NCBI GenBank assembly: GCA_015060765.1
Contig: SUXW01000001.1
Location: 62,001-126,000, forward strand
DNA length: 64,000 nt
Direction: 5' to 3'
Origin: Bacteroides sp.
GTDB lineage: Bacteria; Bacteroidota; Bacteroidia; Bacteroidales; Bacteroidaceae
Shown here one piece after another: positions 8,030 to 64,000 of the stretch. The notes under the pieces are model-generated. The model was not told the origin of the DNA and did not search any database. It saw only the letters and a list, made by a program, of their open reading frames with translations. The translations under genes were made by a program, and so were the position numbers. Positions within the stretch are counted from its first letter, which is position 1. The number at the start of each line of letters is the position of its first letter.

Positions 8030-8050
8030 GTACTATAGACATGAAGTTAG

Positions 8051-10100: not shown

Positions 10101-10129
10101 TTTAGGTAGATGGAATAGGGTAATGACAA

Positions 10130-10158
10130 GAAAGGATGCCTGTTGGGGCATCCTTTTC
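10130..10158. terminator. Bidirectional terminator hairpin
   Basis: GAAAGGATGCC at 10130-10140 pairs with GGCATCCTTT at 10147-10156 around a 6-base loop, with T-rich sequence after it on the plus strand. It lies between two converging genes and can end both transcripts. Confidence 0.75.
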
Positions 10159-10164
10159 TTTGTG

Positions 10165-11481: not shown

Positions 11482-14400
11482 GCTTTTTCTTCGTTAATTC
11501 GGTTGGTTGAAATGTATGAATAGACTGCTGGTACGATGAACATGGTCAGTATAGTGGAAATAAGCATTCCTCCTACAACAGATATACCCATCGCAATACG
11601 TCCGTTGGCTCCTTCTCCGGTAGCAAAGGCAAGAGGGAGAAGACCTAATATGGTTGATACACTGGTCATGAGAATAGGACGAAGCCGTTGGATGGAAGCT
11701 TCACGAATAGCGCTCATCTTGTCGGTACCCGATTCTTGTTTTTGATTGGCAAATTCAACAATCAAGATACCATTTTTAGCTACTAATCCTATAAGCATAA
11801 TGATACCAATCTGACTGTAGATGTTCATAGTCTGTCCGGTGAAATGCATAAATATCAAAGCTCCGGCAACGGCCAAGGGTACAGAAAGCATAATGATGAT
11901 AGGATCCTTGAAACTTTCAAACTGGGCTGCCAATATCAAATAAATAAGAACCAATGCCAATATGAATGCAAACATCAGGCTGGACGAACTTTCTCTATAT
12001 TCTTTTGATTCTCCACTCAAGGCAGTACGGAAGGTGTCATCCAATACTTCAGTGGCTATCTTGTCCATTTCGTCCAATCCTTCACCAATCGTTTTTCCGT
12101 CGGAAAGACCTGCTGATACGGTAGCTGCTACAAAACGGTTATAACGGTACAATTGTGGAGGAGCGATACCTTCCAATAATTCAATGAGATTGTCCATTTG
12201 AATCATTTCGCCATTGTTACTACGGATATAGATGGACTTCAAATCGACAGGCTTGTTGCGTTGTTGGCGATTGATTTCACCTAAAATTTCGTATTGTTTG
12301 CCATTCATGTAAAAATATCCCATACGTTGACCGCTTAATCCGTATTGAAGGGTTTGGGCTATATCGCGGGTGCTTACTCCCATAACGTTGGCTTTGTCTC
12401 GATTGATGGAAATTCGAGCTTCCGGTTTGCTGAATTTCAAATTTACGTCTGCCATTTGGAAGGTAGGATTTTCATACACCTTGGCCATGAAAACGGGTAA
12501 AACCTTTTGGAGTTTTTCTATGTTGGTCGCTTGAATGACATATTGTATTGGCATTCCTCCCCGTCGTCCTCCAAAGGTGCTTTGTTGCTGTACAAATGCG
12601 CGTGCCTTGGTTTGGGTCTGTACGGCTTTCGATAATTGCTCGGCAACATCCATCTGGGAATAATTACGTTCACTTAAATCCTTTAAAGTTATTTGAACAT
12701 TACCACTTCCGCTAAATACGCGTGCTGTTATAGCTTGGGCATCGGGCATAATGGAGTCTGCCAGTGAATAGATGTTTTCCGTATAATCGCGCATGTATTC
12801 GTAAGTTACTCCTTCGGGTCCCATGGTACGCACGGTGATACGGGAACGGTCTTCCAACGGGGCCATTTCTGCAGGAATGGTATTCCATAAGAATAAGATA
12901 GCCAGCAAGGTGATAGCGGTGATGGGCCATGCCCATTTCCGTTTCTTTAGAAAAGCTCTCAATAATTTATCATATCCTTGATTCAAGGCTTCAAAGAATG
13001 GCTCCGTTTTTTGATAAAACCAATTCTTTTTCTGTTGCTTGACCAATAATTTGGTGGCAAGCATAGGAGTGAAGGTTAGGGCTGCAAATGAAGAAATGAT
13101 AACACAACCCGAAACAACAATACTGAATTCGCGGAATAGTCTGCCGGTTGTTCCTTCCATGAATACGATGGGGAAGAAAACGGCAACAAGCGTTACGGTG
13201 GTAGAGATTACGGCAAAAAAGATTTCTTTGCTTCCTTCTATCCCTGCTTCCTTGGGTGACATCCCTCGCTCTATTCGGATATAGATGTTTTCTGTCATTA
13301 CAATGGCATCATCTACTACCAATCCTACTGCGAGAACAATTGCCAACATGGAAAGTACGTTGATGGAAAAACCAGCCAAATACATTACGAAAAAGGCTCC
13401 AATCAGTGATACTGGAATTACAGCACATGGAATCAAAGTTACACGCCAATCTCGCAAGAACAAGAATATGATGATAATTACCAAAACGAATGCCTCGTAC
13501 ACCGTATTCTTTACTTCGTCGATGGAGGCACGGATAAATCGGGTGTTGTCGAAGCTGTAGCTATAGTGCACGTCGTCAGGAAGATCCTTTTCCATCGTTT
13601 TCATACGCTTGTAAACTTCGTCGGCAATCTCTATGTGATTGGCTCCCGGCTGAGGTATAACTACTACTCCAATCATGGGAACACCGTTCATTTTCATGTA
13701 ACTCTTCAAATCACGTGCTTCCAATTCGGCTCGTCCGATATCGCTAAATCTAACGATTCGATTGTCTTCTTCTTTGATAATCAGATTGTTGAATTCTTCT
13801 GCTGTGTGCATTAGCCCAAGAGTACGGATACTTAATTCCATGTAGTCACCTTCTATACTACCAGAAGGTAATTCCACGTTTTCACGATCGACGGCATTTT
13901 TTACATCCATGGGAGTGACACCATATCCCGACATCTTGATAGGATCCAACCAAAGACGCATGGAGTATTTCTTTTCTCCCCAGATTTCTACACTACTTAC
14001 ATCCGGGATGGTCTGTAATTGTTCCTTTACGGTGAGATCGGCTATTTCGCTAATTTCCAATAAAGAACGTTTGTCACTTTGGATAGCCACCATCAGAATT
14101 GGGGTGGCGTCAGCATCTGCTTTGGAAACGGTAGGAGGGTCGCAGTCTCTTGGCAAATAGCGCTGGGCTCGGGAAACTTTATCTCGAACATCGTTTGCTG
14201 CGGTTTCCAGGTCGACGGAAAGTTCAAATTCTACGGTAATACGACTGGAACCTTGACTACTGACACTGGATAGAGAACGGATGCCCGGAATCCCGTTGAT
14301 ATTCTGTTCCAGAGGCTCGGTTATTTGGTTCTCAATAACATCGGCATTGGCACCCGGATATGAGCAGTTGACTGAAATGATGGGATTGTCGACGGATGGA

Positions 14401-14510
14401 TATTCGCGTACTCCTAGACTGGTATAACCGATAGCTCCAAACAATAATATGATTAACGTCAATACTGTAGAAAGTACCGGACGACGTATGCTTAATTCAG
14501 ATATATTCAT
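11478..14510 (-). CDS. RND-family inner-membrane efflux pump (AcrB/MexB type)
   Basis: The 1010-residue protein has the standard RND plan: one membrane helix near residues 12-30, a large periplasmic porter loop, a cluster of helices from about 340, a second loop and a final helix cluster. The proton-relay aspartates of helix 4 are present as D400 and D401 in GLVVDDAIV, and the matching Lys of helix 10 is in VAKNGILI. The pump uses proton flow to export drugs, bile salts or other amphiphiles. It lies 12 bp after the membrane-fusion gene and overlaps tolC. The hydrophobic-amphiphilic export type is clear; the substrate is not. Confidence 0.95.
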   Translation of the reverse strand: MNISELSIRRPVLSTVLTLIILLFGAIGYTSLGVREYPSVDNPIISVNCSYPGANADVIENQITEPLEQNINGIPGIRSLSSVSSQGSSRITVEFELSVDLETAANDVRDKVSRAQRYLPRDCDPPTVSKADADATPILMVAIQSDKRSLLEISEIADLTVKEQLQTIPDVSSVEIWGEKKYSMRLWLDPIKMSGYGVTPMDVKNAVDRENVELPSGSIEGDYMELSIRTLGLMHTAEEFNNLIIKEEDNRIVRFSDIGRAELEARDLKSYMKMNGVPMIGVVVIPQPGANHIEIADEVYKRMKTMEKDLPDDVHYSYSFDNTRFIRASIDEVKNTVYEAFVLVIIIIFLFLRDWRVTLIPCAVIPVSLIGAFFVMYLAGFSINVLSMLAIVLAVGLVVDDAIVMTENIYIRIERGMSPKEAGIEGSKEIFFAVISTTVTLVAVFFPIVFMEGTTGRLFREFSIVVSGCVIISSFAALTFTPMLATKLLVKQQKKNWFYQKTEPFFEALNQGYDKLLRAFLKKRKWAWPITAITLLAILFLWNTIPAEMAPLEDRSRITVRTMGPEGVTYEYMRDYTENIYSLADSIMPDAQAITARVFSGSGNVQITLKDLSERNYSQMDVAEQLSKAVQTQTKARAFVQQQSTFGGRRGGMPIQYVIQATNIEKLQKVLPVFMAKVYENPTFQMADVNLKFSKPEARISINRDKANVMGVSTRDIAQTLQYGLSGQRMGYFYMNGKQYEILGEINRQQRNKPVDLKSIYIRSNNGEMIQMDNLIELLEGIAPPQLYRYNRFVAATVSAGLSDGKTIGEGLDEMDKIATEVLDDTFRTALSGESKEYRESSSSLMFAFILALVLIYLILAAQFESFKDPIIIMLSVPLAVAGALIFMHFTGQTMNIYSQIGIIMLIGLVAKNGILIVEFANQKQESGTDKMSAIREASIQRLRPILMTSVSTILGLLPLAFATGEGANGRIAMGISVVGGMLISTILTMFIVPAVYSYISTNRINEEKA

Positions 14511-35894: not shown

Positions 35895-35975
35895 CCGTCG
35901 GAGTACAATAAAATCTCAACGTAGTACAATTACACTTCATTGGAGTACAATTGTACTACGTTGGTGTATAAATGA
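35895..35975. repeat. 21-bp-period direct repeats with an internal palindrome
   Basis: GGAGTACAAT, GTAGTACAAT and GGAGTACAAT start at 35900, 35921 and 35942, exactly 21 bp apart, with a decayed fourth copy (GGTGTATAAA) at 35963. In addition AACGTAGTACAATT (35918-35931) and its exact complement (35949-35962) form a 14-bp inverted repeat. Two helical turns between copies is a spacing suited to protein binding, but a dispersed genomic repeat is as likely. Confidence 0.75.
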
Positions 35976-36051: not shown

Positions 36052-36102
36052 GTGTGTAGGTAATGTGTGTAAGTAACTTCCCTACACACGCTACCTACAC
36101 AC
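36052..36102. repeat. Long imperfect inverted repeat (GTGTGTA units)
   Basis: The 20-base arm at 36052-36071 matches the reverse complement of 36083-36102 at 18 of 20 positions, around an 11-base loop. Each arm itself holds two GTGTGTA units. There is no T-run, so it is not a typical terminator. Confidence 0.7.
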
Positions 36103-36320: not shown

Positions 36321-36328
36321 TATCTTTG
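36321..36328 (+). promoter_or_regulatory. -7 element of the receptor-peptidase operon
   Basis: A perfect TATCTTTG lies 121 bp ahead of the receptor ATG. The expected TTTG at -33 is absent (AAAG there), so an activator may be needed. A second TAnnTTTG match (TACTTTTG, 36401-36408) lies closer but also lacks a -33 box. Confidence 0.5.
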
Positions 36329-36449
36329 CGAATTATAACTTAAGAGGGTGAAGTATAAAAATACCTAAAAGTAGGGATAGCTAAGAACCTAACTTTAATG
36401 TACTTTTGCAGTCTCTTAGCGAGGAGAATAATTACTAGTTATATATTAG

Positions 36450-39332
36450 ATGAAAAGAATGAGTGAAAATTGGCGAGTAAGGTGCGCTATAGCCTGCCTG
36501 CTCGTGTTTGTGGGTTTGGGAAGTGCGCTTCCTTCTTATTCACAAAACAATCAGAAAGTGAAGATTACAGGTACCGTTTATGAGTACGATGCGAACAATA
36601 AACGTGTGCCTTTGGGATTTGCTACCGTGTCCATTCCCGATGCTGCATTGGGAACTACTTCCAACGATCGTGGTAAATACGAATTGGATGGTATTACGGC
36701 CGGTAAAGTACGTTTGTCTATTCAGTATTTGGGTAAAGTGTCTATCGATACCTTGGTAAATGCCACTCGTGACTTGACACTGAACTTTACACTGAAGAAT
36801 GAAGACTTCCGTTTGAAGGAAGTGACTGTAACCGCTACCAACAGTCGTTCAGGTAAGTCTACAGCATCTCACATCTCACGTTCGGCTATGGACCACATGC
36901 AGGCTACCAGCTTGTACGACTTGATGGCTTTGATGCCTGGTGGTGTCAGCGAAAACCAGGATATGAGTAATGCCCAACAGATTAATATCCGTCAACTTTC
37001 TACCGGTGTGGGCCCAGAATCTCCGATGAACGCATTGGGTACAGCAGTTATCCGTGACGGTGCTCCTATTTCCAATAACGCCAATATGTCGGCCATGAAT
37101 TATACAGCTTTGGGCTCTTCGGAAAATGTGCCGACAGCAATGAACGGTTCTGGAGCTTCTCCTGCCGGTGGTACCGATGTGCGTAGCATTTCTACAGAAA
37201 ACATTGAATCGGTTCAGATTATCCGTGGTATTCCGTCGGTAGAATACGGTGACTTGACTTCGGGTGCTGTAATTATCAATACCAAGGCTGGGCGCGAACC
37301 GCTTCGTATAAAGGCTAAGGCCAATCCGCGTATTTATCAGGTCTCTATGGGTACTGGTTTTGAATTGGGTGAAAAGAAAGGTGCGTTAAATGTAAGTGCT
37401 GATTATGCCTACAATACCACCCAACCGACTGCTAGTTATCAGAACTATCAACGTGCTACCGCCAAGGTGCTCTATTCGAATACCTTCTTCGATAATAAGT
37501 TGCGTAGCAATACCAGTCTCGACTTTATCTATGGTCTTGACCTGCGCAAACGTAATCCGGATGATGAACAGACCAAGACTTCTTCCAGAGGAGAAGATGT
37601 AGGCTTCACTTTGAATACTAACGGTACTTGGAACATTAATAAAGGATGGTTGAAGACTGTTAAATATGTGTTGAGCGGTACGTATACCGACAAGCAAAGT
37701 TATTTTGAAAGCGTATTGGCATCGGCTAATAATCCTTACTCCATGACCTATACTGATGGAGCTGTGTTGAGCAATGTGGCAGGTAAGCATGTTTATGATG
37801 CCGATGGAAAGGAAATTACCAACTTTACAGGAGTGGATAATTCGAATTATGCATATTATTTGCCTGCAAGTTATTTGGCGCGTCGCGATATCGACAGTCG
37901 TGAAGTGAATGTGTTTGCCAAGTTGACTGCTACTTTATTCAAGCAGAGCGGTGATGTGAACAACCGTATCTTGATTGGTGCCGATTTCCGTAGCGATGGT
38001 AATGTGGGTAACGGCACGAAGTTCAATCCTACCACTCCTCCTCGCAGCAGCCAGTATGGACATAACTCATCTTACCGTCCACGTAGCTACAAGGACATTC
38101 CGTTTGTGAATCAGGTAGGAGCCTATATTGAAGACAATTTCAAGTGGTCGATCGGTGGTACACACGACTTCAATCTGCAGGCCGGTCTTCGTTACGACCA
38201 CGCTTCGGTTGTGGGCGGTATCGTATCTCCGCGTTTGAATGCTTCGTTAGATGTCATTCCAAATGTGTTCTCTATTCAAGGTGGTTATGGAATCGCTGCC
38301 AAAATGCCTTCATTGGTTTATCTCTATCCCGAAAATGCTTACTTTGAATATGTGAATATGAATGAATTAGCCAATGAAAAATTGCCGGAGGACGAACGAC
38401 TGTTCATTACTACTACCAAGGTACAGCAGATAGACAATTCAGACCTGAAGATAGCCCGTAACCATAAGGCTGAGGTAGGTTTCAACCTTCAGTTGGGCAA
38501 GGCTCGTCTGAATGTTACCGCTTATCAGGAGCGTTTGAAGAACGGTTATGCATTGGCACAGACCTTCGATACTTTTATTCCGTTCCTCTTTAATAAATAC
38601 GGGCGCAATGAAAATAATGAAATAGTGCTTACAGGTGCATATCCTGTACTGTCCACTTATAACAAACCCACTAATAACCTAAACGTGGAAACTAAGGGCG
38701 TGGAATTCGATTTGAACATTGGACGTATTGATGCTATCCGTACTGCTTTCCAAGTGAATGGATCGTGGATGCGTACCAAGAGCTGGCGTAGCGGTTACGA
38801 TTTCTATGATAGTGGCAATGATGAGGCTTCGGCCCGTAAACCTATCGGTGTGTTCTTGCAGGATGGCAATGCCAAGTACAGACAACAGTTTGTCACTACC
38901 CTCCGTGCCACTCACAATATTCCACGCATTGGTTTTGTAGTAACCATGACTGCTCAAGCCATCTGGAACCAATCCGATTGGCAGACTTATGGAAACGACT
39001 CTATCCCTATAGGATATTTGGCTTTGGAAGATGCTTCTTTCAATAAGTTCGAAGAAGGCAAATACACCACTGAAGACCAATTGAAGGCCGACGGATATGA
39101 CTATTTGATACAGAACGTGAGCCATAACAAAGGCATCAAGCAGTCTTATAGCCCTTATTTCTGTTTCAATTTGAATGTAACGAAAGAAATTAGCGATATG
39201 CTTCGTGTGTCCTTCTTTGCCAACAACATGTTCAGAAGTTATCCACGTAAGGATGACAAACGAAATCCGGGTAGCTTTGAACTGATGAATAACAGGTATT
39301 TCTTTGGATTGGAATTATCACTTACTTTATAA
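36450..39332 (+). CDS. TonB-dependent outer-membrane receptor, not of the SusC type
   Basis: The 960-residue protein has a signal peptide (ends SYSQ), a carboxypeptidase-regulatory-like domain (about 38-115), a plug domain with the IRQLSTGVGPES region and SVQIIRGIPSVEYGDLTSG (about 130-280), and a 22-strand-type barrel to the C-terminus. It imports a ligand across the outer membrane using TonB. There is no SusD partner; a DUF4876 lipoprotein and a DUF6850 barrel follow instead. It is the first gene of a six-gene operon with gaps of 2-40 bp. The ligand is unknown. Confidence 0.9.
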   Translation: MKRMSENWRVRCAIACLLVFVGLGSALPSYSQNNQKVKITGTVYEYDANNKRVPLGFATVSIPDAALGTTSNDRGKYELDGITAGKVRLSIQYLGKVSIDTLVNATRDLTLNFTLKNEDFRLKEVTVTATNSRSGKSTASHISRSAMDHMQATSLYDLMALMPGGVSENQDMSNAQQINIRQLSTGVGPESPMNALGTAVIRDGAPISNNANMSAMNYTALGSSENVPTAMNGSGASPAGGTDVRSISTENIESVQIIRGIPSVEYGDLTSGAVIINTKAGREPLRIKAKANPRIYQVSMGTGFELGEKKGALNVSADYAYNTTQPTASYQNYQRATAKVLYSNTFFDNKLRSNTSLDFIYGLDLRKRNPDDEQTKTSSRGEDVGFTLNTNGTWNINKGWLKTVKYVLSGTYTDKQSYFESVLASANNPYSMTYTDGAVLSNVAGKHVYDADGKEITNFTGVDNSNYAYYLPASYLARRDIDSREVNVFAKLTATLFKQSGDVNNRILIGADFRSDGNVGNGTKFNPTTPPRSSQYGHNSSYRPRSYKDIPFVNQVGAYIEDNFKWSIGGTHDFNLQAGLRYDHASVVGGIVSPRLNASLDVIPNVFSIQGGYGIAAKMPSLVYLYPENAYFEYVNMNELANEKLPEDERLFITTTKVQQIDNSDLKIARNHKAEVGFNLQLGKARLNVTAYQERLKNGYALAQTFDTFIPFLFNKYGRNENNEIVLTGAYPVLSTYNKPTNNLNVETKGVEFDLNIGRIDAIRTAFQVNGSWMRTKSWRSGYDFYDSGNDEASARKPIGVFLQDGNAKYRQQFVTTLRATHNIPRIGFVVTMTAQAIWNQSDWQTYGNDSIPIGYLALEDASFNKFEEGKYTTEDQLKADGYDYLIQNVSHNKGIKQSYSPYFCFNLNVTKEISDMLRVSFFANNMFRSYPRKDDKRNPGSFELMNNRYFFGLELSLTL

Positions 39333-39345
39333 TATATAGGCGCTT

Positions 39346-40620
39346 ATGAAAAGAAAATTAATATATTTATTTGCGTTGGTGTTCACTCCTTTGGTAGGAT
39401 GTGATACATTCAACGAACTGTCCGATGCCAAGGAGGTGGCACCCATTGCTGTGAATGTGGATTTGGACATTGCCGTAGAAAATTTGGCTTCGGTAAAAGG
39501 ATTGACTGTGAAATTTGATAATTACGATGAAGACTTGCACTATACCAAGGAAGTGTCCGGCGAAAGTGTGAGCATGGATGGCATTTTGCCCGGCATCTAT
39601 ACCGTTTCGGTGTCGGGTACCGCCATTGATTTGGAGAATAATGAATATTATGTGAACGGTAATGCAGTCAATGCACCTTTGTTCGAAGATGGTGTAGGAT
39701 TGGATATCAAGATAAAGGGCTTGAAGGTGAGTCCGTTGGTATTTAAGGAAATTTACTATTGCGGTAGTCGCCTTCCGACAGGAACTACCTACTTCCGCGA
39801 TCAGTTCTATGAAATCTACAACAATTCGGGTGATGTGCAATATTTGGACGGTATATGCATGGGACATCTGTATCCGGGAACGGCGACTACAACCTTGCCG
39901 GTGTGGCCGGAATCGGACGGTGATAACTATGCCTATGCAGAACGTGTGTGGAAGTTCCCTGGTAACGGTACCGACTATCCCTTGCAACCGGGTGAATCGG
40001 TGGTCATTTCTCAGTTTGCCGCCAATCACCAATTGGAACAGTACAATCCGTTAAGTCCTGTTAATGGTAGCAGTTCGGAATTTGAATTTAATATGAATAA
40101 TGCCAACTTCCCCGATCAACCGGCTTATGATATGGTGCACGTGTGTTATAACGGTTTGGCGGTTATGGGAACCGTTCCTCAGTATCTGACTTCGGTAAAT
40201 GGTGCAGCTTATGTTATTTTCCGTGTGCCCGAAGGCGAAACTTGGGATCCGGTGAACGATGAATCTTTGAAAGCTAAGGACCTCAATAAACCGAAAAGTA
40301 AGAATGTCTATGCTAAGATTCCTATCAAATATATACTCGATGCGGTGGAAGCAGTTCATAACGAAACGAAGGCCAATGCCAAACGCGTACCTGCTGTACT
40401 CGATGCAGGTATGACATGGGTAGGTAACACTTACTGTTCTTTGAGTGTAGTTCGTAAATTGTCTGTCGATGAAGAAGGCAATCCGATAGTACGCGAAGAA
40501 ACCGGTACCTATATCTATCAGGATACCAATAACAGTACCGATGATTTTGAACGCGGTGTTGAACCCCAAATGCGTCGTAATGGGGCTAAAATGCCGTCGT
40601 GGAACCATACATTGCAATAA
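39346..40620 (+). CDS. DUF4876 lipoprotein
   Basis: The 424-residue protein has a lipobox (LVGC, Cys19), an N-terminal beta-sandwich (about 30-130) and a second domain from about residue 130 whose FKEIYYCGS, FYEIYNNSG and YPLQPGESVVIS stretches look like the lamin-tail beta fold. This matches DUF4876 as I know it. It is probably surface-exposed and may be the ligand-binding partner of the receptor encoded 13 bp upstream, taking the place that SusD has in glycan systems. Confidence 0.75.
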   Translation: MKRKLIYLFALVFTPLVGCDTFNELSDAKEVAPIAVNVDLDIAVENLASVKGLTVKFDNYDEDLHYTKEVSGESVSMDGILPGIYTVSVSGTAIDLENNEYYVNGNAVNAPLFEDGVGLDIKIKGLKVSPLVFKEIYYCGSRLPTGTTYFRDQFYEIYNNSGDVQYLDGICMGHLYPGTATTTLPVWPESDGDNYAYAERVWKFPGNGTDYPLQPGESVVISQFAANHQLEQYNPLSPVNGSSSEFEFNMNNANFPDQPAYDMVHVCYNGLAVMGTVPQYLTSVNGAAYVIFRVPEGETWDPVNDESLKAKDLNKPKSKNVYAKIPIKYILDAVEAVHNETKANAKRVPAVLDAGMTWVGNTYCSLSVVRKLSVDEEGNPIVREETGTYIYQDTNNSTDDFERGVEPQMRRNGAKMPSWNHTLQ

Positions 40621-40639
40621 TATCTAAAAGAACAGAACA

Positions 40640-42202
40640 ATGAAAAGACAATATATACGATTTGTAAAAAGCGGCTTGTTGATGGTTGCATGCTTGATTG
40701 GCATGGAGACAGCAGCCCAAGGTTATTCACCTGCTGCTATGGAACAATTGAAAATGAAACGTCTGTGGTTCCAATCACAGAATGCGGCTGGTACAGTGTT
40801 TGACGATACACAGAACTATTCCAATGTAATCGTGGGATATGATTTGCAGGACGGTAATTTTGCCCGTCCACAAGATGGTGAGAAGGAATCTACTATCGGT
40901 GTGTCCAGTGAAGGTTTTATCAATTTGGGCAATGCATACGTTTGGGGCTCATTTAACTTTTTACAGGAAAATCTAACCGATGCCGGATATAATGCATCCG
41001 TAGCCGATCCATTCCGTAGAATGCCTTACTATGTAGCCGACTTGCATCACAGTGACTGGCGCAACCAATATTATGACTTGAAGTTCCGTGCTGCCACTCC
41101 GCTTATCGGCAATCATTGGGCATTCGGAATTGAAGGTAATTATGTGTCCATTTTGGCTGCCAAGCAACGGGATCCACGTGCGGATACTCGTTTCTACACT
41201 TTAGTACTGGCTCCGGGGGTAACATATAAATTCAACGATTCGCATCGATTGGGTGTGAATGTCAAATATACTTCCATCAAGGAAGATTCCCGAATTGAAT
41301 GTGTCAACACTTATGTAGATCAGGACTATTATATGATGTATGGTTTGGGTACTGCTATATACGGTTATGGTGACGGCCCTGAGACCAACTACATAGGAGA
41401 CCGTATCGGTGCAGCCTTGCAATACAATTTCAGTACTCCAAGTTTCAACTTGTTGTTCGAAGCCGGTTATGATGAACGTGCCGAAAAAGTGGAAAGTGCC
41501 TTTATGTCTAATCCGAAGAAGGTGTTTGGCGTGAAAGACAAGACTTTACAATTAGCCTTGACCGCTGTAAAAGAAACAGAAAACTTTACTAACTATGTAA
41601 AGGCTTCTTTTGTGAACCAGGATATGGATGGTATTCAGTATATTTCCCAACGTGACAATACAGAAAGCCAAAATGGATGGGTGGATTTGCATCAGAATAT
41701 CCGTTCTACATATCAAACCCAGAATATGGCATTCAACTATGCTTTGAGTAAGAATCGTGGCAATGAGTACAGTTGGAAAGCCGAAGTAGGTATGAACTAT
41801 ACCAAGCAAGATGATGAATACTTAATGCCTAATTCTGTACAGAATGCAGAGAACATTGAGTTCAATTTGGGCTTCAAGAAGAACTTTGCATTGGGTAACG
41901 AAATGAATCGTCGTCTGTTGGTGGATGTCCATGGTGCCTATAACAACAACATCGGTGGTGAATATGTATACGGTGGTAGTCATGCCGATTACATAACTGT
42001 AACAGAATTACACCAAGGATTGACCGATTATTATACCAGTGACTATTACCGCTTGGGTGCTTCGGTTACATACTCACAACAAGTAAAGGAAGACAAGCGT
42101 ATGAACTTGTTCGGTAAAGTAGCTTTCGACCGTGTGAATACTTCCGATTATGATTTCGACGGACGTTCATTCTTGTCTGTTAGCTTAGGATGTAATTTCT
42201 AA
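40640..42202 (+). CDS. DUF6850-type outer-membrane beta-barrel protein
   Basis: The 520-residue protein has a signal peptide (ends TAAQG) and then alternating strands typical of an outer-membrane barrel, ending in an aromatic residue (SLGCNF), as barrel-assembly signals do. The family name is from memory of the usual neighbour order with DUF4876. It could be a second channel or a secretion/anchoring partner for the peptidases that follow. It lies 19 bp after the lipoprotein gene. Confidence 0.7.
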   Translation: MKRQYIRFVKSGLLMVACLIGMETAAQGYSPAAMEQLKMKRLWFQSQNAAGTVFDDTQNYSNVIVGYDLQDGNFARPQDGEKESTIGVSSEGFINLGNAYVWGSFNFLQENLTDAGYNASVADPFRRMPYYVADLHHSDWRNQYYDLKFRAATPLIGNHWAFGIEGNYVSILAAKQRDPRADTRFYTLVLAPGVTYKFNDSHRLGVNVKYTSIKEDSRIECVNTYVDQDYYMMYGLGTAIYGYGDGPETNYIGDRIGAALQYNFSTPSFNLLFEAGYDERAEKVESAFMSNPKKVFGVKDKTLQLALTAVKETENFTNYVKASFVNQDMDGIQYISQRDNTESQNGWVDLHQNIRSTYQTQNMAFNYALSKNRGNEYSWKAEVGMNYTKQDDEYLMPNSVQNAENIEFNLGFKKNFALGNEMNRRLLVDVHGAYNNNIGGEYVYGGSHADYITVTELHQGLTDYYTSDYYRLGASVTYSQQVKEDKRMNLFGKVAFDRVNTSDYDFDGRSFLSVSLGCNF

Positions 42203-42242
42203 AATTTTAATAGCATCGTGTCATTTTCTTAAATCAAAAAAT

Positions 42243-44417
42243 ATGCGTAAACTAATTACAAGTGGTTTGTTGCTTTGCGGAGCTTTGGCTTTGCAGGCAC
42301 AGACTTTTGTAAAACCTACAATGAAGGTAAAAGAAACGTCATTTGCCGTCATTACTGATAAGGGAACGTATCAAGCCTGTGAAGCCGAATTCAAAGCTTA
42401 TCAGGAAATTTTGGGAGATGAGGGCTTACCTACGTTTATCGTGTATAACGATTGGAGGAAGCCCGAAGACGTAAAGAAAGTCATTGCCAAACTTTATAAG
42501 AAGAACAATCTGGAGGGTGTTGTTTTTGTAGGTAATGTGCCCATTGCCATGATACGCAAGGCACAACACATGACCTCTGCTTTCAAAATGGATGAAAGCA
42601 AATATCCATGGCGTGATTCATCGGTTCCTAGTGACCGTTTTTATGATGACTTCGACTTGCAATTCGATTACTTGAAGCAGGATAGTGCTGAAACCAATTT
42701 CTTCTATTACAATTTGGCTATAGAATCTCCACAGAAGATTCAATGCGACATCTATTCAGCCCGTATTAAGGCTATCGATAATGGTGAAGATCCTTATGCT
42801 CAAATCAGCCGTTACTTAAAGAAGGCAATTGCCGAACACAAATCGGGTAACAAGCTTGATCAGTTCTTCTCTTATACAGGCGATGGCTCTTATTCCAATT
42901 CGTTGGTGGCTTGGACTCCTGAAGTACATACCATCCGTGAACAGATGCCGAAAGTCTTTGATCGCGAAGGGCGTGCCCGTTTTATGCGTTATAACTTCAG
43001 CGACTATCCCAAGGATGATGTCATCAATATGTTGAAACGTGAAGATCTCGACCTCTCCATCTTCCACGAACATGGTTTGCCTGAACGCATGTATCTTTCA
43101 GGTTCTGCAGCTACTCAGACTTGGAATTCCCATATGGATGCCATGAAGTATTATTGGCGTGGGTTGGCCCGTCGTTACGAAAACCGTCCGAAGGACTTTA
43201 AGGATATGTTGGAACGTATGCACAACAAGTATGGTTTGGATTCTACATGGATTTCCGGATGGAACGATCCGAAAGTGATTGAAGAAGATTCTTTACGCAA
43301 TTTGCGTACAGGTATCATCTTGCCGGAAGTGACTCAAATGAAACCGAATAGCCGTATGGTTATCTTCGATGCTTGTTACAACGGTGATTTTCGCGAAAAA
43401 GATTACATCGCAGGACGTTTCATCATGTCTGAAGGTAAATGCGTAGTTACTTTTGCCAACTCTGTAAATGTGCTTCAAGACAAGATGGCTAATGAAATGT
43501 TGGGCTTGCTTGGTATGGGTGCCCGCGTAGGCCAATGGGCCAAGTTGACTAATATCCTTGAATCACATATTACAGGTGACCCCACTATCCGTTTCAAGTC
43601 TATCAACGAAGTGGATTGTGATGCGCTCCTTAAGGCTCCGTATAATGAAGCACAGATGTTGGAATTGATTAACTCTCCATACGCCGATGTACAGAACTTG
43701 GCTTTGCACCGTTTGTATCGTAACAAGTATGCTGGTATTTCTGACTTGTTGCGCAAGACTTACGAAACATCTCCGTATATGATGACTCGTTTCACCAGTT
43801 TGGCTTTGCTCGAAAAGTTGAACGATAAGAACTACCAGGAAGTATTATTGCTTTCTATCAATGATTCTTATGAATTCATCCGCCGTACAACTATTCGCAT
43901 GATGCAACATATTGGTCTGAATGAATACATATATCCGCAAATCAAAAACTATGTGGAAGACAATTTGTCGGAGCGTGTAGCGTTCAATGTAGAACTGGGC
44001 CTACATGTATTTGATGAAGCTGCTGTCAATGCCGCAATCGAAAAGGTGATGGCCGAAACTCATATTGCGATCGATAAGGACAAATTCCGCAAGGCATTGG
44101 AACGCTCGGGTAGAAACCGTAGCATGCAGAAAGAATTGGTGGACAAGAATACCGCTGAACGTTGGAGATTGACTTACTGCAATAGCTTGAAGAATTATAT
44201 GGCTCATGCCGGTGTAGATGGATTCATCAATATTCTGAAGGACAATACAGAAAGTGATCAACTCCGTATCCGTCTGTTGCAGGCTTTGGCATGGTTTACC
44301 CATTCTTATCGCAAGGCCGATATCATGCAGACCTGTGACCAATTGGCAAAAGACAAAAAGTTGTCTGCCGAACTCCGTGAAGAAGCAAAACGTACGTATT
44401 ACAGACTTAAAGACTAA
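42243..44417 (+). CDS. Clan CD (gingipain/C25-like) cysteine peptidase with helical-repeat tail, copy 1
   Basis: The 724-residue protein has a signal peptide (ends LQAQ). The catalytic half shows SIFHEHG with H277 before Gly and IFDACYNGDF with C378, the His-Gly and Ala-Cys dyad of clan CD peptidases, then the GDPTIRF strand seen at the end of C25 domains. From about residue 460 to the end, repeated helical units (SPYADVQNLALHRLYRNKYA and similar) look like HEAT/armadillo repeats. It has no secretion tag beyond the signal peptide. It is the first of three tandem paralogues. Peptidase activity is inferred from motifs. Confidence 0.75.
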   Translation: MRKLITSGLLLCGALALQAQTFVKPTMKVKETSFAVITDKGTYQACEAEFKAYQEILGDEGLPTFIVYNDWRKPEDVKKVIAKLYKKNNLEGVVFVGNVPIAMIRKAQHMTSAFKMDESKYPWRDSSVPSDRFYDDFDLQFDYLKQDSAETNFFYYNLAIESPQKIQCDIYSARIKAIDNGEDPYAQISRYLKKAIAEHKSGNKLDQFFSYTGDGSYSNSLVAWTPEVHTIREQMPKVFDREGRARFMRYNFSDYPKDDVINMLKREDLDLSIFHEHGLPERMYLSGSAATQTWNSHMDAMKYYWRGLARRYENRPKDFKDMLERMHNKYGLDSTWISGWNDPKVIEEDSLRNLRTGIILPEVTQMKPNSRMVIFDACYNGDFREKDYIAGRFIMSEGKCVVTFANSVNVLQDKMANEMLGLLGMGARVGQWAKLTNILESHITGDPTIRFKSINEVDCDALLKAPYNEAQMLELINSPYADVQNLALHRLYRNKYAGISDLLRKTYETSPYMMTRFTSLALLEKLNDKNYQEVLLLSINDSYEFIRRTTIRMMQHIGLNEYIYPQIKNYVEDNLSERVAFNVELGLHVFDEAAVNAAIEKVMAETHIAIDKDKFRKALERSGRNRSMQKELVDKNTAERWRLTYCNSLKNYMAHAGVDGFINILKDNTESDQLRIRLLQALAWFTHSYRKADIMQTCDQLAKDKKLSAELREEAKRTYYRLKD

Positions 44418-44423
44418 TTGGCC

Positions 44424-46625
44424 ATGATGAAGAAATTAATTTATCTGTCATTCCTCCTGCCATTGGTCGGGAATGCTCAAACTACAATCATAAAGCCTTC
44501 GGTAAAACATCCAACAGCTTTTGCCATTGTAACAGATAATCAAACTTATGCCAATACCAAGGAAGCCATGCATCTGTATAAGGATGCCGTGGAAGCTGAT
44601 GGATTGGCCACTTATTTGATTAGCGGTAACTTCAAGAATCCGGATGACGTAAAGCTGGAAATTGTAAAGGTATATCATGAATGTCCTACTCTCGAAGGTA
44701 TAGTGTTGGTAGGAGATATTCCTATAGCTTTGGTGCGCAATGCCCAACACATGACCACTGCTTTCAAAATGAATGAAAAGTCATTCCCTTGGCCGGAATC
44801 ATCTGTCCCGACCGACCGCTTCTACGATGACTTGCACTTGAAGTTTGAATACTTGAAGCAAGATTCTGTCAATCCGCAGCATCATTATTATAAGCTGACA
44901 GAAGACAGCCCTCAACACTTGAATCCGACTTTCTACTCGGCACGTATCAAGTATCCGGAAAAGAAGGGTGGTGACAAGTACCAGGCTATTGCCGCTTATT
45001 TAAAGAAGGCTGCTGCAGCTAAAGCTGATAAAAGTAATAAGCTTGACCAGGTATTCTCGTTCAACGGTGGTTCCTATAATTCCGATTGCTTGCTTGTATG
45101 GATGGACGAGGAAAAAGCTTATATGGAAAACTTCCCTTTGGCTTTTGGTCGTGAAATGGGTTTCAAGCATTGGAATTTCCGTATGCGTCACCCCATGAAA
45201 TACCGTTTGTTTGATGAATTGAGTCGTGACGACATCGATGTGTTCATGTTCCATGAACATGGTATGCCTACCGGTCAGTTGATTAACGACGAATTGGCTT
45301 GTACCTCACTTGACAGCCGTTACAAAATGTTGAAAAGTACGTTTTATAATGCGGTGGTGGACCATGCTAGAAAAGAACAAAGTACTGATAGGGTGCGTTT
45401 GCAGATGCAGGAAAAACGTCACCTGACCGATGTGTTCTTCAAGGATTTGGATAATAGGGAATGGTGGGCTGCCGATTCTGCTCACTATGCCGATGAACGC
45501 ATCAATACCATCGATTTGATGAGCCGCAATCTCAAGACCAATCCTAAATTCATTATGTTCGATGCTTGCTACAATGGCTCTTTCCATGAAGAAGACTATA
45601 TTGCCGGACAATATATCTTCAACGATGGACATACCTTGGTAGCACAAGGTAATACCCGTAATGTATTGCAAGACCGTTGGACCATTGAAATGATTGGCTT
45701 GATGTCGCACGGTGTACGTGTCGGTCAGTATAACCGTATCATCGCTTCGTTGGAAGGCCATTTGTTTGGTGACCCAACTCTCCGCTTTGCTCCAATTGAG
45801 GAAAACACTTGGAGCGTGGATATGACCGTTCGTAAAACCGATAAGGCTTATTGGGAAAGCTTGCTTAACAGTAAGTATGCTGATATCCAGAGCTTGGCTA
45901 TGCGTATGTTGGCTGATTTGGATACCAATAAGACCCTGTCTGGCAAGTTTCTTGAAATATATCGTACCACTCCGTTCAATACCACCCGTATGGAGGCCAT
46001 CAAACTGTTGAGTCGCTATAAGGACGGTAGCTTTACCGAAGTGTTGAAGGAAGGTGTGAACGATGCTTACGAATTGGCTGCTCGTTTGAGTGCCAACTAT
46101 GCAGCATTCAATGGCGATGAATCCTTGATTCCTTATGTAGTCGATGCATTAGTGGAACATAATGAACGGTTGCGTGTACAGATGGGAGCCAAAAAAGCCT
46201 TGTCTCTCTTCCCGAAAGAAAAGGTACGTCGGGAAGTGGATGCCTTCTATGCTCGGAAGGACCGTCAGAACGAAGACGATGAAAAGAATCGTCTGCTTCG
46301 TGGATTGGAGGCTACATTTGCTAAAGATGCCAAAAATCATACCGTTGTTATGGATATGAATGCAAGTGAAAAAAAACGTATAGCGGCTATCCGTACGGTA
46401 CGTAACTTTACCTTTCATCCGTATGTAGAAGATTATCTCAATCTTATTCGTAACGAGTCCAATCCGTTGGAAGTACGTGTGGCAATGACTGAAGCTTTGG
46501 GCTGGTTTACTCAATCCGTGAAGAGTCCGTACATAGTAAGCGAATTGAAGAAGTACAACCATCCTTCTTTGCCGGAAGATTTGAGATTGGAAATTGAACA
46601 AACCATTAATCGATTAACTTTCTGA
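44424..46625 (+). CDS. Clan CD (gingipain/C25-like) cysteine peptidase with helical-repeat tail, copy 2
   Basis: The ATG at 44424 gives 733 residues and a signal peptide ending GNAQ; a further ATG at 44427 would serve as well, and the TTG at 44418 is not needed. H279 lies in MFHEHG and C382 in MFDACYNGSF, with GDPTLRF later. The C-terminal half again has HEAT-like units (SKYADIQSLAMRMLADLD). It starts 6 bp after copy 1 ends. Aligned by eye, the catalytic blocks are close to the other two copies, while the loop before the Cys differs, suggesting different cleavage preferences. Confidence 0.75.
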   Translation: MMKKLIYLSFLLPLVGNAQTTIIKPSVKHPTAFAIVTDNQTYANTKEAMHLYKDAVEADGLATYLISGNFKNPDDVKLEIVKVYHECPTLEGIVLVGDIPIALVRNAQHMTTAFKMNEKSFPWPESSVPTDRFYDDLHLKFEYLKQDSVNPQHHYYKLTEDSPQHLNPTFYSARIKYPEKKGGDKYQAIAAYLKKAAAAKADKSNKLDQVFSFNGGSYNSDCLLVWMDEEKAYMENFPLAFGREMGFKHWNFRMRHPMKYRLFDELSRDDIDVFMFHEHGMPTGQLINDELACTSLDSRYKMLKSTFYNAVVDHARKEQSTDRVRLQMQEKRHLTDVFFKDLDNREWWAADSAHYADERINTIDLMSRNLKTNPKFIMFDACYNGSFHEEDYIAGQYIFNDGHTLVAQGNTRNVLQDRWTIEMIGLMSHGVRVGQYNRIIASLEGHLFGDPTLRFAPIEENTWSVDMTVRKTDKAYWESLLNSKYADIQSLAMRMLADLDTNKTLSGKFLEIYRTTPFNTTRMEAIKLLSRYKDGSFTEVLKEGVNDAYELAARLSANYAAFNGDESLIPYVVDALVEHNERLRVQMGAKKALSLFPKEKVRREVDAFYARKDRQNEDDEKNRLLRGLEATFAKDAKNHTVVMDMNASEKKRIAAIRTVRNFTFHPYVEDYLNLIRNESNPLEVRVAMTEALGWFTQSVKSPYIVSELKKYNHPSLPEDLRLEIEQTINRLTF

Positions 46626-46627
46626 TT

Positions 46628-48826
46628 ATGAAGAAATATATTCTATTAGTAATGACAACTTTGTGTTTGTATGGTATGCAGGCACAAACGGTGGTAAAAC
46701 CGTCTGTAAAGACAAAAACTACATTTGCTATTGTAGTCGACCAGAAGAGCTACGATGCTGCTAAAGCAGAAATCGATGCTTATCGGGCCAGTGTGGAAAA
46801 CGAAGGTTTGGGTACTTACCTGTTAATTGATGATTGGAAGCGTCCTGAACCTATCCGCGAACAATTAATCAAGCTTCATGCCGACAAGAAAGCTCCGTTG
46901 GAAGGTTGTGTGTTGGTAGGTGATATTCCTATAGCTATGGTACGCGATGCCCATCATCTGTCTTCTGCCTTCAAAATGAATCCTAAAATGGATTGGAGGA
47001 GATCGAGTATTCCTTCCGACCGTTATTACGATGACTTCGGTTTGACTTTCGACTACATCAAGCAAGACAGTGTTATTGCTGACTATCACTACGTAAGTTT
47101 GCGTGCCGATGGTAAGCAGTACATTATGCCCGATATCTATTCGGCCCGTATCCGTCCGCTCAAGGTGGAAGGTATGGACAAGTACCAACAGATTCGTGAT
47201 TACTTGAAGAAGGTTGTTGCTGAAAAACAGAACCAAAATGTACTCGACCAACTGACTATGGCTCGTGGACACGGTTATAACTCTGAAGATTTGGTAGCAT
47301 GGAGCGGCGAACAACTTGCTTTGCGCGAACAGATGCCGCATTTGTTCAAGGCCGGTAATGTAGTGAAGTTCTACGACTTCGAAACCCAATATCCTGCCAA
47401 GTATGATTATTTGAATGAAGTCCAACGTGAAGGATTGGACATCATGTTGTTCCATCATCATGGTGCACCTACTACTCAATATCTGAACGGTTATGAAAAT
47501 GGTTCAGGTATCGAGTTGAGCATTGAGAATATCAAGCGGTTCTTGCGTAGCAAACTTCCGAGATTGGCTGAAAAGAATGGTAAAGAGGCTGCGATAGATA
47601 ATTATGTAAAGAAGTATAATGTACCTCGTGAATGGTGTGAAACCGCTTTCGATGAAGCTTGCTTGAAGGAAGATTCCCTTTACAATGCTACTATGGACAT
47701 TTATGCCGAAGATCTCCACAAACTTACTCCGAATGCTCGTTTTGTATTGTTGGATGCTTGCTATAACGGTTCGTTCCACATGGACGACAATATCGTTGGT
47801 TCCTATATCTTTGGTAAGGGTAAGACCATCGCTGCCATGGGATGTACCGTAAATACCATTCAGGACAAGTGGCCCGATGAATTCTTGGGTTTGATGGCCG
47901 AAGGTATGCGTATCGGTCAGTTCACCCGCTTTACTTGTTTCCTTGAAAACCATTTGGCAGGTGACCCTACTTTCCATTTCGTACCGAACGGTTCGTTGGA
48001 TATGGATGTGAACCAAGCTATTGTATTGCAGGAAGGTAATATCGGATTCTGGAAAAAGCAATTGAATTCTTCTTCTGTGGACATGCAGGCTATGGCTCTC
48101 CGTCAGTTGGAAATGGCCGACTATCCTGGTATTGTGAACTTGTTGAAGAAAAGCTATTTTGAGTCGGACAAGTTCGTGGTGCGCTTGGAAGCCATGCGTT
48201 TGTTGGCTTTGAACCATCCAACTACTGCCGAAAATCTGGAAGTATTACAAGTGGCTTTGAACGATACCTACGAATTGATTCGTCGTTTCGCTACGGAGTA
48301 TGTAGAACTTAACTGTTCGCCTGCTTTGACACCGGCATGGGCCGAAAGTTTCATGATGCGTGGTCATGAAAAACGTCATCGTTTCCGTGTGATGAGTGCC
48401 ATCGATACTTTTGTCTCTATCAATGGAAAGGAAGAGTTGGAAAAGTACGCATCGTTGTGGACTTGGTACAACCGCAATCGTGTGGATGATTTCATCAAGC
48501 GTTTTGACTCTTATAAGAAGAGTCAGGAAAAGGACCTTGCTTTCATTGTCAATCCTGAAACGACAGACAAGAAAGTGAGCAGTGAAATCAGAACATTCCG
48601 CAATAACCCGATTACTCCGGCCATTGAACCATTGTTGAGCATCCTCAAGAACGAGGCACGTGGTGAAGAACCTCGTATAGGGGCAGCCGAAACATTGGGC
48701 TGGTATGTTCAACATTACAATAAGGCCGAAATTATCAAGGCTTTGAAGTCGTTCAATACTTCCAATGAAAAAATTATGAACGAAGTGAAGAAGACCATCA
48801 ATCGTCTGGAAGGAAAGAACAGATAA
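46628..48826 (+). CDS. Clan CD (gingipain/C25-like) cysteine peptidase with helical-repeat tail, copy 3
   Basis: The 732-residue protein has a signal peptide ending MQAQ. The catalytic pair is H278 in LFHHHG (three His in a row) and C378 in LLDACYNGSF, followed by GDPTFHF. The helical-repeat tail is kept (SSSVDMQAMALRQLEMAD and later units). It starts 2 bp after copy 2 ends and is the last gene before a strong terminator. All three copies keep the dyad, so none looks dead. Confidence 0.75.
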   Translation: MKKYILLVMTTLCLYGMQAQTVVKPSVKTKTTFAIVVDQKSYDAAKAEIDAYRASVENEGLGTYLLIDDWKRPEPIREQLIKLHADKKAPLEGCVLVGDIPIAMVRDAHHLSSAFKMNPKMDWRRSSIPSDRYYDDFGLTFDYIKQDSVIADYHYVSLRADGKQYIMPDIYSARIRPLKVEGMDKYQQIRDYLKKVVAEKQNQNVLDQLTMARGHGYNSEDLVAWSGEQLALREQMPHLFKAGNVVKFYDFETQYPAKYDYLNEVQREGLDIMLFHHHGAPTTQYLNGYENGSGIELSIENIKRFLRSKLPRLAEKNGKEAAIDNYVKKYNVPREWCETAFDEACLKEDSLYNATMDIYAEDLHKLTPNARFVLLDACYNGSFHMDDNIVGSYIFGKGKTIAAMGCTVNTIQDKWPDEFLGLMAEGMRIGQFTRFTCFLENHLAGDPTFHFVPNGSLDMDVNQAIVLQEGNIGFWKKQLNSSSVDMQAMALRQLEMADYPGIVNLLKKSYFESDKFVVRLEAMRLLALNHPTTAENLEVLQVALNDTYELIRRFATEYVELNCSPALTPAWAESFMMRGHEKRHRFRVMSAIDTFVSINGKEELEKYASLWTWYNRNRVDDFIKRFDSYKKSQEKDLAFIVNPETTDKKVSSEIRTFRNNPITPAIEPLLSILKNEARGEEPRIGAAETLGWYVQHYNKAEIIKALKSFNTSNEKIMNEVKKTINRLEGKNR

Positions 48827-48846
48827 ACTTATTGTTTATACAGAAA

Positions 48847-48888
48847 GAACCGCCGGTTTGTCATCTACAAACCGGCGGTTCCTTTTTT
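48847..48888 (+). terminator. Terminator of the receptor-peptidase operon
   Basis: GAACCGCCGGTTTGT at 48847-48861 and its exact complement at 48867-48881 form a perfect GC-rich 15-bp stem with a 5-base loop, followed by six Ts. Confidence 0.93.
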
Positions 48889-52806: not shown

Positions 52807-52881
52807 TCGGGATGACTGGATTCGAACCAGCGACCTCGCGCCCCCCAGACGTGTACTCTAACCGGACTGAGCTACATCCCG
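52807..52881 (-). tRNA. tRNA-Pro with anticodon GGG
   Basis: On the minus strand the 7-bp acceptor stem CGGGATG/CATCCCG, the D-arm GCTCAGTCCGGTTAGAGT, the anticodon loop CTGGGGG (anticodon GGG, reading CCC and CCU) and the T-arm CTGGTTCGAATCCAG are all present; 75 bases with the discriminator A. CCA is not encoded. One A-C mismatch appears in the anticodon stem. Confidence 0.95.
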
Positions 52882-62260: not shown

Positions 62261-64000
62261 TTACAATCCTGCCAATTCAATTACTTTGTCAACAGCTGAA
62301 AGCAAACCTTCGGGGTTCTTACCACCGGCTGTTGCGAAGTGAAGAGCACCACCGCCACCACCTTGAATCAGCTTGGCAGCTTCCTTCACAAGGTTACCGG
62401 CCTTCAAGCCGCCCTTCACGAGGTCTTCGCTCAACATCACGGTTAGCATCGGCTTGCCGTTTTCTACGCTACCGATAACTACCAACAGGCTACCGGCTAC
62501 TTCGCCCTTCAATTGGAAGGCGATGTCCTTGGCAACATCGGCACTAATAGGAGCAACGGTCTTGATGACCTTTACACCACCCATTTCCTTGGCATTGGCT
62601 ATCAGGTCGGCCTTCAATGAGGCAGCTTTTTCCTTCATGAATTCTTCCAGTTGCTTCTTCAAGCCAGCATTTTCGTCGATGGCCTTGCGGATAGCAGACT
62701 TCAAGTCGGGCACGTTGTTGAACAATGCCTTGAGGTCGGCCATGGTATCCTGGAACTTGTCAATCATCATTTCCACCTTTTCGCCGGTGATGGCTTCGAT
62801 ACGACGGACACCGGCAGCTACAGAGCTTTCGCTGAGGATGCGTACCATACCAATCTTACCGGTAGCCTGTACGTGGGTACCGCCACAGAATTCGATGGAG
62901 TTGCCGAACTGGATAACACGTACTTCGTCGCCATACTTTTCGCCGAAGAGGGCGATAGCACCGAGTTCCTTGGCCTTTTCAATCGGCAAGTTGCGGTATT
63001 CTTGCAAAGGTACATTTTCGCGAATCTTGGCATTGACCAAGTGTTCTACCTGACGGATTTCTTCATCGGTCACCTTCTGGAAGTGAGAGAAGTCGAAACG
63101 CAATGAATCCGGTGTTACCAACGAACCCTTCTGTTCTACGTGAGTGCCGAGCACTTCGCGGAGCGCTTCGTCCAACAAGTGAGTACAAGAGTGGTTGGCA
63201 GCACAAGCGGCACGCTTTTCAGTATCCACACAAGCCATCATAGGTGCATCCGGATGTTCGGGCAACTTCTTGGCAATGTGGATAGGAAGGTTGTTTTCCT
63301 TCTTGGTATCGATGATTTCGATGGTTTCGAATTCGCTGCAAATTACACCGGTATCACCTACCTGACCACCGCTTTCGGCATAGAACGGAGTGTCGCTCAA
63401 TACGATTTGGTAGAGAGTCTGGTTCTTCTGCTTTACCTGACGGTAGCGGAGGATAGAGGTTTCGTATTCTGTATAGTCGTAGCCCACGAAGTTGGTTTCG
63501 CCTTCGTTCAATACAATCCAGTCGCCTGTTTCTACGGCTGCTGCGTTGCGGGCACGTTCCTTCTGCTTCTGCATTTCGGCCTTGAATTCCTCTTCGTTTA
63601 CGGTCATGCCGTTTTCACGGAGAATCAGTTCGGTCAAGTCGAGCGGGAAACCGAATGTATCATAAAGTGTAAAGCCGTCTACACCGCTGATTTCCTTCTT
63701 GCCGGCTGCCTTGGCTTCGTTCATGGTCTTGTCCAACAAGCGGATACCGGTTTCGAGGGTGCGGAGGAAGGAATCTTCTTCTTCCTTGATGACCTTTTCT
63801 ATCAATGTCTGTTGAGCCTTCAGTTCCGGATAAGCTTCGCCCATGTTGTCAATCAACACCGGCAACAACTTGTACATGAATGCCTGCTTCTGATTGAGGA
63901 ACGTATAACCGTAACGAACGGCACGACGGAGGATACGACGAATCACGTAACCGGCCTTGGCGTTGCTTGGCAACTGACCGTCGGTGATGGAGAAGGCAAT
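62261..64000 (-). CDS. alaS: Alanyl-tRNA synthetase, 5' part outside the window
   Basis: 580 codons of the C-terminal part are present and the frame stays open to the window end, so the catalytic N-terminus is missing. The [20 protein letters not shown] stretch is in the tRNA-recognition domain. The editing domain has zinc ligands in HSCTHLL and CGGTH, and the C-terminal oligomerisation region ends [19 protein letters not shown]. It charges tRNA-Ala and clears mischarged Ser and Gly. Confidence 0.97.

Follow-up and report, generated by a model that had tools for sequence, protein, structure and literature searches.

Import of an iron protein followed by its cleavage is described for Pectobacterium, whose receptor FusA imports ferredoxin and whose periplasmic M16 protease FusC cuts it (accessible part of PMC6793856). 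How gut Bacteroidota acquire iron from proteins is poorly understood, and for the named counterparts of the operon studied here iron regulation was already known in print. According to the accessible part of PMC10434189, BT1933-39 of Bacteroides thetaiotaomicron (products named as HEAT repeat, DUF4876 and TonB receptor proteins) is 3.5-7.4-fold up without iron, PG1019-22 of Porphyromonas gingivalis, whose named products are limited to DUF4876, the receptor and hypothetical proteins, is 20.8-214.5-fold up, and BT3625-33 is strongly up; that same part speaks of an 'outer membrane transport system locus' for the first two, does not term the HEAT proteins peptidases and gives no function. A hemin comparison in the accessible part of PMC10470040 further lists a log2 fold change of -5.42 for the P. 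gingivalis DUF4876 gene. Here we analyze a 64,000-nucleotide stretch of a Bacteroides sp. contig (SUXW01000001.1, positions 62,001 to 126,000; hereafter the window) and, within it, a six-gene operon at 36450-48826 on the forward strand that encodes a TonB-dependent receptor, a DUF4876 lipoprotein, a DUF6850 predicted outer-membrane barrel and three putative peptidases, PepA, PepB and PepC.

We find that the six-gene set is a conserved, co-inherited unit, and show that its receptor-DUF4876-DUF6850 core pairs interchangeably with C25-like, M16 and ABC transporter modules. On this basis we propose, with the case for and the case against evenly poised, that the operon imports an iron-bearing protein or peptide and then cuts it in the periplasm. 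The arrangement resembles the Fus (FusA/FusC) and YddB/PqqL systems of Proteobacteria in placing a receptor and a predicted periplasmic protease in one operon and in the iron response reported for its named counterparts, and sister loci of the core encode M16 proteases, three of the four compared matching FusC/PqqL. It differs from them in having three C25-like HEAT cysteine peptidases, with no M16 protease among them, and in the added DUF4876 lipoprotein and DUF6850 barrel. The earlier note on this DNA, made by a model from the sequence, had stated that no function was described for the set: for the peptidases this was a fair statement, but an iron response had been published for the counterparts. 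No functional description of the six-gene set was found in the literature searched, where most subscription papers were outside reach, nor, with few subscription papers covered, were the pairing of the core with C25-like, M16 and ABC modules or a Fus-like hypothesis for it.

A Conserved, Co-inherited Operon

The window's list of open reading frames (ORFs) shows all six genes in the same direction, with intergenic gaps of 13, 19, 40, 6 and 2 bp when the fifth gene is read from ATG 44424, which reproduces exactly the layout given in the earlier note; the PepB ORF alternatively opens at TTG 44418, for a product of 735 aa. The features of the locus are as follows.

36321-36408, + strand: promoter region, two TAnnTTTG boxes flanking an operator-like inverted repeat
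36450-39332, + strand: TonB-dependent receptor, 960 aa; CarboxypepD_reg-like N-terminal extension and plug (Pfam CarbopepD_reg_2 and Plug)
39346-40620, + strand: DUF4876 lipoprotein, 424 aa; Pfam 1.2e-51; lipobox Cys19
40640-42202, + strand: DUF6850 predicted outer-membrane barrel, 520 aa; Pfam 2.8e-113
42243-44417, + strand: PepA, 724 aa; C25-like cysteine peptidase domain and C-terminal HEAT repeats; His277, Cys378
44424-46625, + strand: PepB, 733 aa from ATG 44424; second C25-like/HEAT peptidase
46628-48826, + strand: PepC, 732 aa; third C25-like/HEAT peptidase
48847-48888, + strand: intrinsic terminator, perfect 15-bp stem and T-rich tail

A survey of 393 genomes from the order detects the peptidase in 16, DUF4876 in 71 and DUF6850 in 84. 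Every peptidase genome carries both DUF4876 (16/16) and DUF6850 (16/16), and 70 of the 71 DUF4876 genomes carry DUF6850, with Fisher values for co-occurrence of 2.8e-13 and 4e-62; the 14 genomes with DUF6850 and no DUF4876 hold weak matches only. Peptidase and DUF4876 genes lie no more than ~6 kb apart in 15 of the 16 genomes, the exception being G340, where a peptidase fragment sits on another contig. Co-occurrence, the check named in the earlier note, holds in one direction: the peptidase never appears without the two core families, whereas DUF4876 appears without the peptidase in 55 of 71 genomes, and one of the named loci described next, L088, has no core within 22 kb (see below). The operon was also found on a contig of one same-genus genome, and a phylum-wide survey returned a full-length peptidase in 7 of 395 genomes, five of them outside the class.

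Gene order was compared across 80 named loci, the best of 528 found, which span Bacteroides, Phocaeicola, Prevotella, Muribaculaceae, Odoribacter, Rikenellaceae and one Sphingobacterium. A six-frame recount of these detects the receptor in 72, DUF4876 in 73 and DUF6850 in 76, and finds the order receptor-DUF4876-DUF6850-peptidase in 68. The other 12 comprise three loci with the peptidases before the core, one with a split DUF4876, seven contig-end pieces that start inside the operon, and L088; in some lineages peptidases lie on both sides of the core.

Two side observations concern individual loci of this collection. In L100, L101, L102 and L104, from distant members of the phylum, a propeller-type (BNR/YCF48) protein stands between DUF6850 and the peptidase, with a type IX secretion system (T9SS) tail in the two copies scanned, L100 and L102; L101 and L104 were assessed by eye. 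L043, from a record named Paenibacillus, is a typical Bacteroidota operon copy whose closest neighbor in the DUF4876 tree is from a Muribaculaceae record; the Paenibacillus record is probably a mislabelled metagenome bin.

Interchangeable Partners of the Core

Partner modules were classed at 79 DUF4876 loci, drawn in part from 60 extra stretches of an order-wide search; the sample is non-random, as some loci were chosen for their peptidase. Eight loci without a detected DUF4876 were omitted, three of which (L123, L124 and L155) do carry the gene, hidden by longer antisense ORFs. The receptor and DUF6850 occur in the same run as DUF4876 in 67 of the 79. An ABC transporter with a permease or DUF4857-type protein accompanies the core in 28 loci, often with PepSY and a small lipoprotein added. 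C25-like peptidases are the partner in 12, one of which also has an M16 protease and another a papain-type protein; six more carry M16 without a C25-like peptidase, one of them again with a papain-type protein. The papain-type protein of these two loci is Pfam-supported, although the locus label rests on two seeds matching themselves.

In the ABC-type loci the core, including a DUF6850-like barrel, is the same, and an ABC transporter, permease and PepSY protein replace the peptidases; PepSY, ABC and DUF4857 assignments were confirmed by Pfam on examples. These loci resemble BT3625-33 (receptor, DUF4876, PepSY, ABC, DUF4857), with which they are equated by product names only. This pairing bears on the idea that the operon is a general protein-utilization system that scavenges peptides independently of iron. 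An operon that combines a TonB-dependent receptor with three peptidases would suit such a role, but the reported iron response of the counterparts (accessible part of PMC10434189), a receptor nearest to siderophore receptors, and the pairing of the same core with PepSY/ABC modules named like the iron-starvation-induced BT3625-33 all speak against it, and we consider it very doubtful.

An M16 gene stands in the same run as the core in seven of the 79 loci, against ~0.4 expected by chance, a rough estimate from hand-merged counts in seven genomes chosen for having M16 in or near such a locus and from a 6-kb one-strand window, beyond which the large M16 of L166 lies. All seven loci (L019, L102, L135, L151, L166, L167 and L172) encode M16 proteins that keep HxxEH, and Pfam confirms M16 in each, as it does DUF4857 in two proteins. 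The comparison with structures in the PDB covered four of the seven, namely L019, L172, L151 and L167. The first three match PqqL at 9e-61, 3e-69 and 1e-65 and FusC at 6e-49, 4e-53 and 9e-41, respectively; their best match is 9ldy, 'Peptidase, M16 family', and other M16 structures follow at ~1e-17 to 1e-21.

The distribution of partners was followed on a quickly built DUF4876 tree with 94 rows, 92 of them different, where L121 and L169 carry a hand-assigned ABC label and stand as 'none' in the classing of 79 loci. The peptidase label is clustered, with six changes vs 25 in shuffles. The M16 label takes six changes for its six rows, at least five of which are forced by well-supported branches. 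A tentative and somewhat doubtful possibility is that Bacteroidota have an iron-protein importer family of their own, in which varied periplasmic proteases (C25-like/HEAT, FusC/PqqL-type M16 and papain-type) were plugged repeatedly into a fixed receptor-DUF4876-DUF6850 core that shows no sequence match to FusA. If so, whole-protein import for iron would have arisen at least twice.

The Receptor and Its Outer-Membrane Companions

By profile, the receptor is closest in the PDB to ferric-enterobactin receptors (3.5e-14), with BtuB a marginal match at 9e-4 and SusC matched solely via a short N-terminal domain; as a single sequence it matches no solved receptor at E 0.001. An NCBIfam scan returned TIGR01783, the siderophore-receptor model (31 bits against a cut-off of 223), and PRK13483 alone, both far below cut-off. 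The earlier note had likened the locus to SusCD-type systems, which it resembles in having a TonB receptor with a carboxypeptidase-like N-terminal extension beside a lipoprotein. The comparison did not survive the family scans, which ruled out SusCD membership: the receptor is not matched by the SusC/RagA model in NCBIfam, the lipoprotein is not matched by the SusD model in Pfam or NCBIfam (DUF4876 is its sole Pfam match, and NCBIfam is blank), and there are no glycosidases among the six genes. We take both libraries to include the SusC and SusD models.

The DUF4876 lipoprotein has a solved relative, 4q1z, at 6.5e-173 by profile, and its lipobox Cys19 is invariant (39/39); signal peptides, claimed in the earlier note for all products, are visible by eye at the N-termini. 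No solved relative was found for DUF6850, one relative of which is titled 'DUF6850 family outer membrane beta-barrel protein' in its public record.

The nearness of the receptor profile to ferric-enterobactin/catecholate receptors would suit uptake of xenosiderophores or metallopeptides, where the peptidases would only open the peptide part of a small iron chelate or would destroy Trojan-horse peptide antibiotics that use the receptor. The match to TIGR01783, though so far below cut-off, and the many core loci without a protease fit that explanation, and the accessible part of PMC9291397 links FusC, in discussion, to the uptake of antimicrobial peptides and resistance to them. Yet three large HEAT peptidases, and their exchange for large M16 proteins that mostly match FusC/PqqL, seem excessive for a small chelate, and we regard the explanation as unlikely.

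Three C25-Like HEAT Peptidases

PepA, PepB and PepC are mutually about one third identical, and the sole useful Pfam match in each is HEAT_2 in the C-terminal half (0.018, 1.7e-6 and 1.8e-5, respectively). In the N-terminal half, His277 (FHEHG) and Cys378 (DACYNG), numbered as in PepA, are shared by all 202 members aligned, namely the three proteins of the window and 199 of 209 relatives from the 80 loci, ten outside 600-830 aa having been omitted. Their His-Gly motif, Cys and final GDP follow the same order as in C25, the family of the type IX sortase PorU and the gingipains. Profile alignment (hhalign) likewise gives a common order for the motifs VGD, SDR-Y, R-I, C and GDP, pairing the Cys and GDP and leaving the His-Gly motif unpaired. 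The proteins differ from C25 in their HEAT repeats and in the T9SS tail, which was not found. A search for a solved relative of the catalytic domain gave none that was convincing, the good matches covering the HEAT half and being mostly designed repeat proteins. For the clan CD assignment of the earlier note, the His and Cys motifs are in place and the support by profile is weak, with the values given below; we hold with moderate confidence that all three are active C25-like cysteine peptidases.

Read by eye, the peptidase N-termini are ordinary signal peptides with no lipobox. Pfam and NCBIfam scans reveal no T9SS tail on any of the three, and no C25 (PorU-type) match was found in the source genome (2.89 Mb, 42 contigs, 84% complete). 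These three features together make import first and periplasmic cutting second, as in Fus, the likely order of events. They also bear on a surface attack in the gingipain-Hmu manner, in which the peptidases would remove iron or haem outside the cell from proteins of host or dietary origin, leaving only the freed cofactor for the receptor to import. Similarity to C25, of which we take the gingipains to be members, would favor it, as would the protein added in the peptidase locus L113, which combines a papain match with a sub-threshold match to HmuY. Against it stand the peptidases themselves, in which neither a T9SS tail (Pfam, NCBIfam) nor, by eye, a lipobox was found, and the 84%-complete genome, which gave no PorU-type match; such an attack is distinctly improbable.

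As a separate observation, in several lineages a Cys/His-rich small protein, apparently membrane-anchored, is encoded directly before the upstream peptidase (L084 1584-2024, L066 1600-2043 and L114 15895-16398); the L084 copy has no Pfam match.

Proposed Import and Periplasmic Cutting, and What Weighs Against It

We propose that low iron, to which the named counterparts are reported to respond, would switch on a single six-gene transcript in this operon as well. Binding of an iron-bearing protein or large peptide may then fall to the surface DUF4876 lipoprotein and the TonB-dependent receptor; to judge from its co-inheritance, the DUF6850 barrel is a likely third outer-membrane subunit. By analogy with FusA, TonB-driven import would bring the substrate into the periplasm, whole or as a chain. 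There the three C25-like peptidases, presumably periplasmic and gripping the substrate with their HEAT repeats, could cleave it, releasing iron or haem. This cutting step draws on the catalytic dyad, which is shown, and on the C25-like fold, which is weakly supported. In other lineages the M16 protease encoded in the same operon might do the cutting instead. The simplest shared account of the C25-like and M16 partners, reached by analogy with Fus, would be that an iron-bearing protein or peptide is imported and then cut in the periplasm. The idea advanced in the earlier note, that a protein or a cofactor bound to one is captured, remains in our view the best, with the sequence of steps changed: that note placed cutting before import.

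Several results weigh against this proposal, most strongly the many core loci without a protease and the kind of ligand carried by the nearest solved receptors. As regards the first, 33 of the 79 loci have no partner module by the classing rule, a class that includes L110 (peptidase nearby, not in the run), L112 (fragmentary peptidase on a different contig) and contig-end pieces, and this adds to the 28 of ABC type; since most core loci lack a protease, the core can work with no cutting step. As regards the second, ferric-enterobactin-type receptors carry small siderophores, not proteins, and the window receptor, here differing from Fus, gives no match to FusA at E 0.001 either as a single sequence or as a profile, FusA being presumably present in the PDB. 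The tie of the peptidases to C25 is weak: Pfam Peptidase_C25 matches two of 24 members, at best with 6e-5, and is silent in the other 22, and hhalign, with 18 C25 proteins on the other side, reports P = 0.0025 at a probability of just 12%. Among the M16 partners compared, L167 is of another type (best match a zinc protease at 4e-40, PqqL at 6e-15 and FusC at 3e-12), and M16 labels are spread over the DUF4876 tree no differently from chance, 500 of 500 shuffles being as low. BT1933-39 is likened to the operon by product names alone, and its induction is modest (accessible part of PMC10434189). Finally, L088 holds five peptidase genes in a row (3046-14443) with no receptor, DUF4876 or DUF6850 within 22 kb.

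Should the proposal nevertheless be correct, an iron-regulated operon of a genetically tractable gut commensal would import and digest an iron protein by means of this putative peptidase family, protease-associated import would extend past the Proteobacterial M16 systems, and DUF4876 and DUF6850, both labelled as of 'unknown function', would gain a defined role.

Promoter, Operator-Like Repeat and Terminator

The earlier note had described one promoter and one perfect terminator. The latter was borne out: the hairpin at 48847-48881 has 15 pairs and is followed by a T-rich tail, whereas the other listed + strand hairpins inside the operon have 5-7 pairs; terminator-like hairpins overall number 16 vs 11.4 in shuffles. 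In place of a single promoter, two Bacteroidota-type TAnnTTTG boxes are present, at 36321-36328 and 36401-36408. Across 64 upstream regions (window included; 62 different), TAnnTTTG occurs within 330 bp in 34, vs 9.5 in letter shuffles. Sigma-70-like sites are at chance level (36 vs 35.0).

Between the two boxes lies an inverted repeat, AATACCT-N6-AGGgATa, at 36360-36379. Matches of at least 11/14 occur in 17 of the 64 upstream regions vs ~1.7 in shuffles, with a consensus fitted on the same rows. Genome-wide the repeat is unspecific, with 23 sites vs 19 for the control, and AATACCT-N6-AGGTATT, suggestive upstream, was not accepted as a defined iron operator. A search for HmuY, meant as a regulon test, gave no match for anything, controls included. 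Farther upstream, in the stretch that separates the OmpA gene from the operon, three GGAGTACAAT-type units with 21-bp spacing at 35899-35963 overlap an inverted repeat with 23-nt arms; another inverted repeat, its arms 25 nt long, occupies 36052-36102.

Probable Movement of the Operon Between Genomes

Bacteroides bouchesdurhonensis, B. xylanisolvens, Phocaeicola faecicola and a Butyricimonas record (L021, L022, L023 and L038) share one version of the operon, with 99.9% identity across >12 kb; to the operon of the window this version is just 71% identical. A further copy lies on NZ_OY725920.1 of B. finegoldii (annotated as a 'plasmid'; L220 and L221), together with integrases, ParA and a group II intron. 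From the near-identity across genera and the copy beside integrases and ParA, we conclude that the 99.9%-identical version probably moved between genera recently. This 'plasmid 18' was not taken to prove that the operon is plasmid-borne, since carB, trpS and mutL are also on it and it may be a circularized chromosomal piece. L020 shares the operon and upstream flank of the window at 82-85% identity, the match ending at the operon end.

The B. finegoldii copy, with a PepA 77.5% identical, is on the same stretch as a YncE-TonB-ABC cluster that has a cobalamin riboswitch at its head. We considered for that reason the capture of a protein-bound corrinoid (vitamin B12), with the peptidases digesting a B12-binding protein. 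Set against this shared stretch, no cobalamin riboswitch was found in the window or in six other operon loci, BtuB is a marginal match of the receptor profile, and the published counterparts respond to iron (accessible part of PMC10434189); we judge capture of B12 to be extremely improbable.

Separately, L023 and L038 have a 1331-bp segment (18325-19655 in L021) in the reverse orientation, which suggests an invertible stretch. As for the surroundings of the operon in the window, an OmpA-like gene precedes it and a DUF4380 gene lies beyond the terminator; the window also holds one tRNA gene (52807-52881) and a partial alanyl-tRNA synthetase gene that runs from 62261 to 63973 at the window edge.

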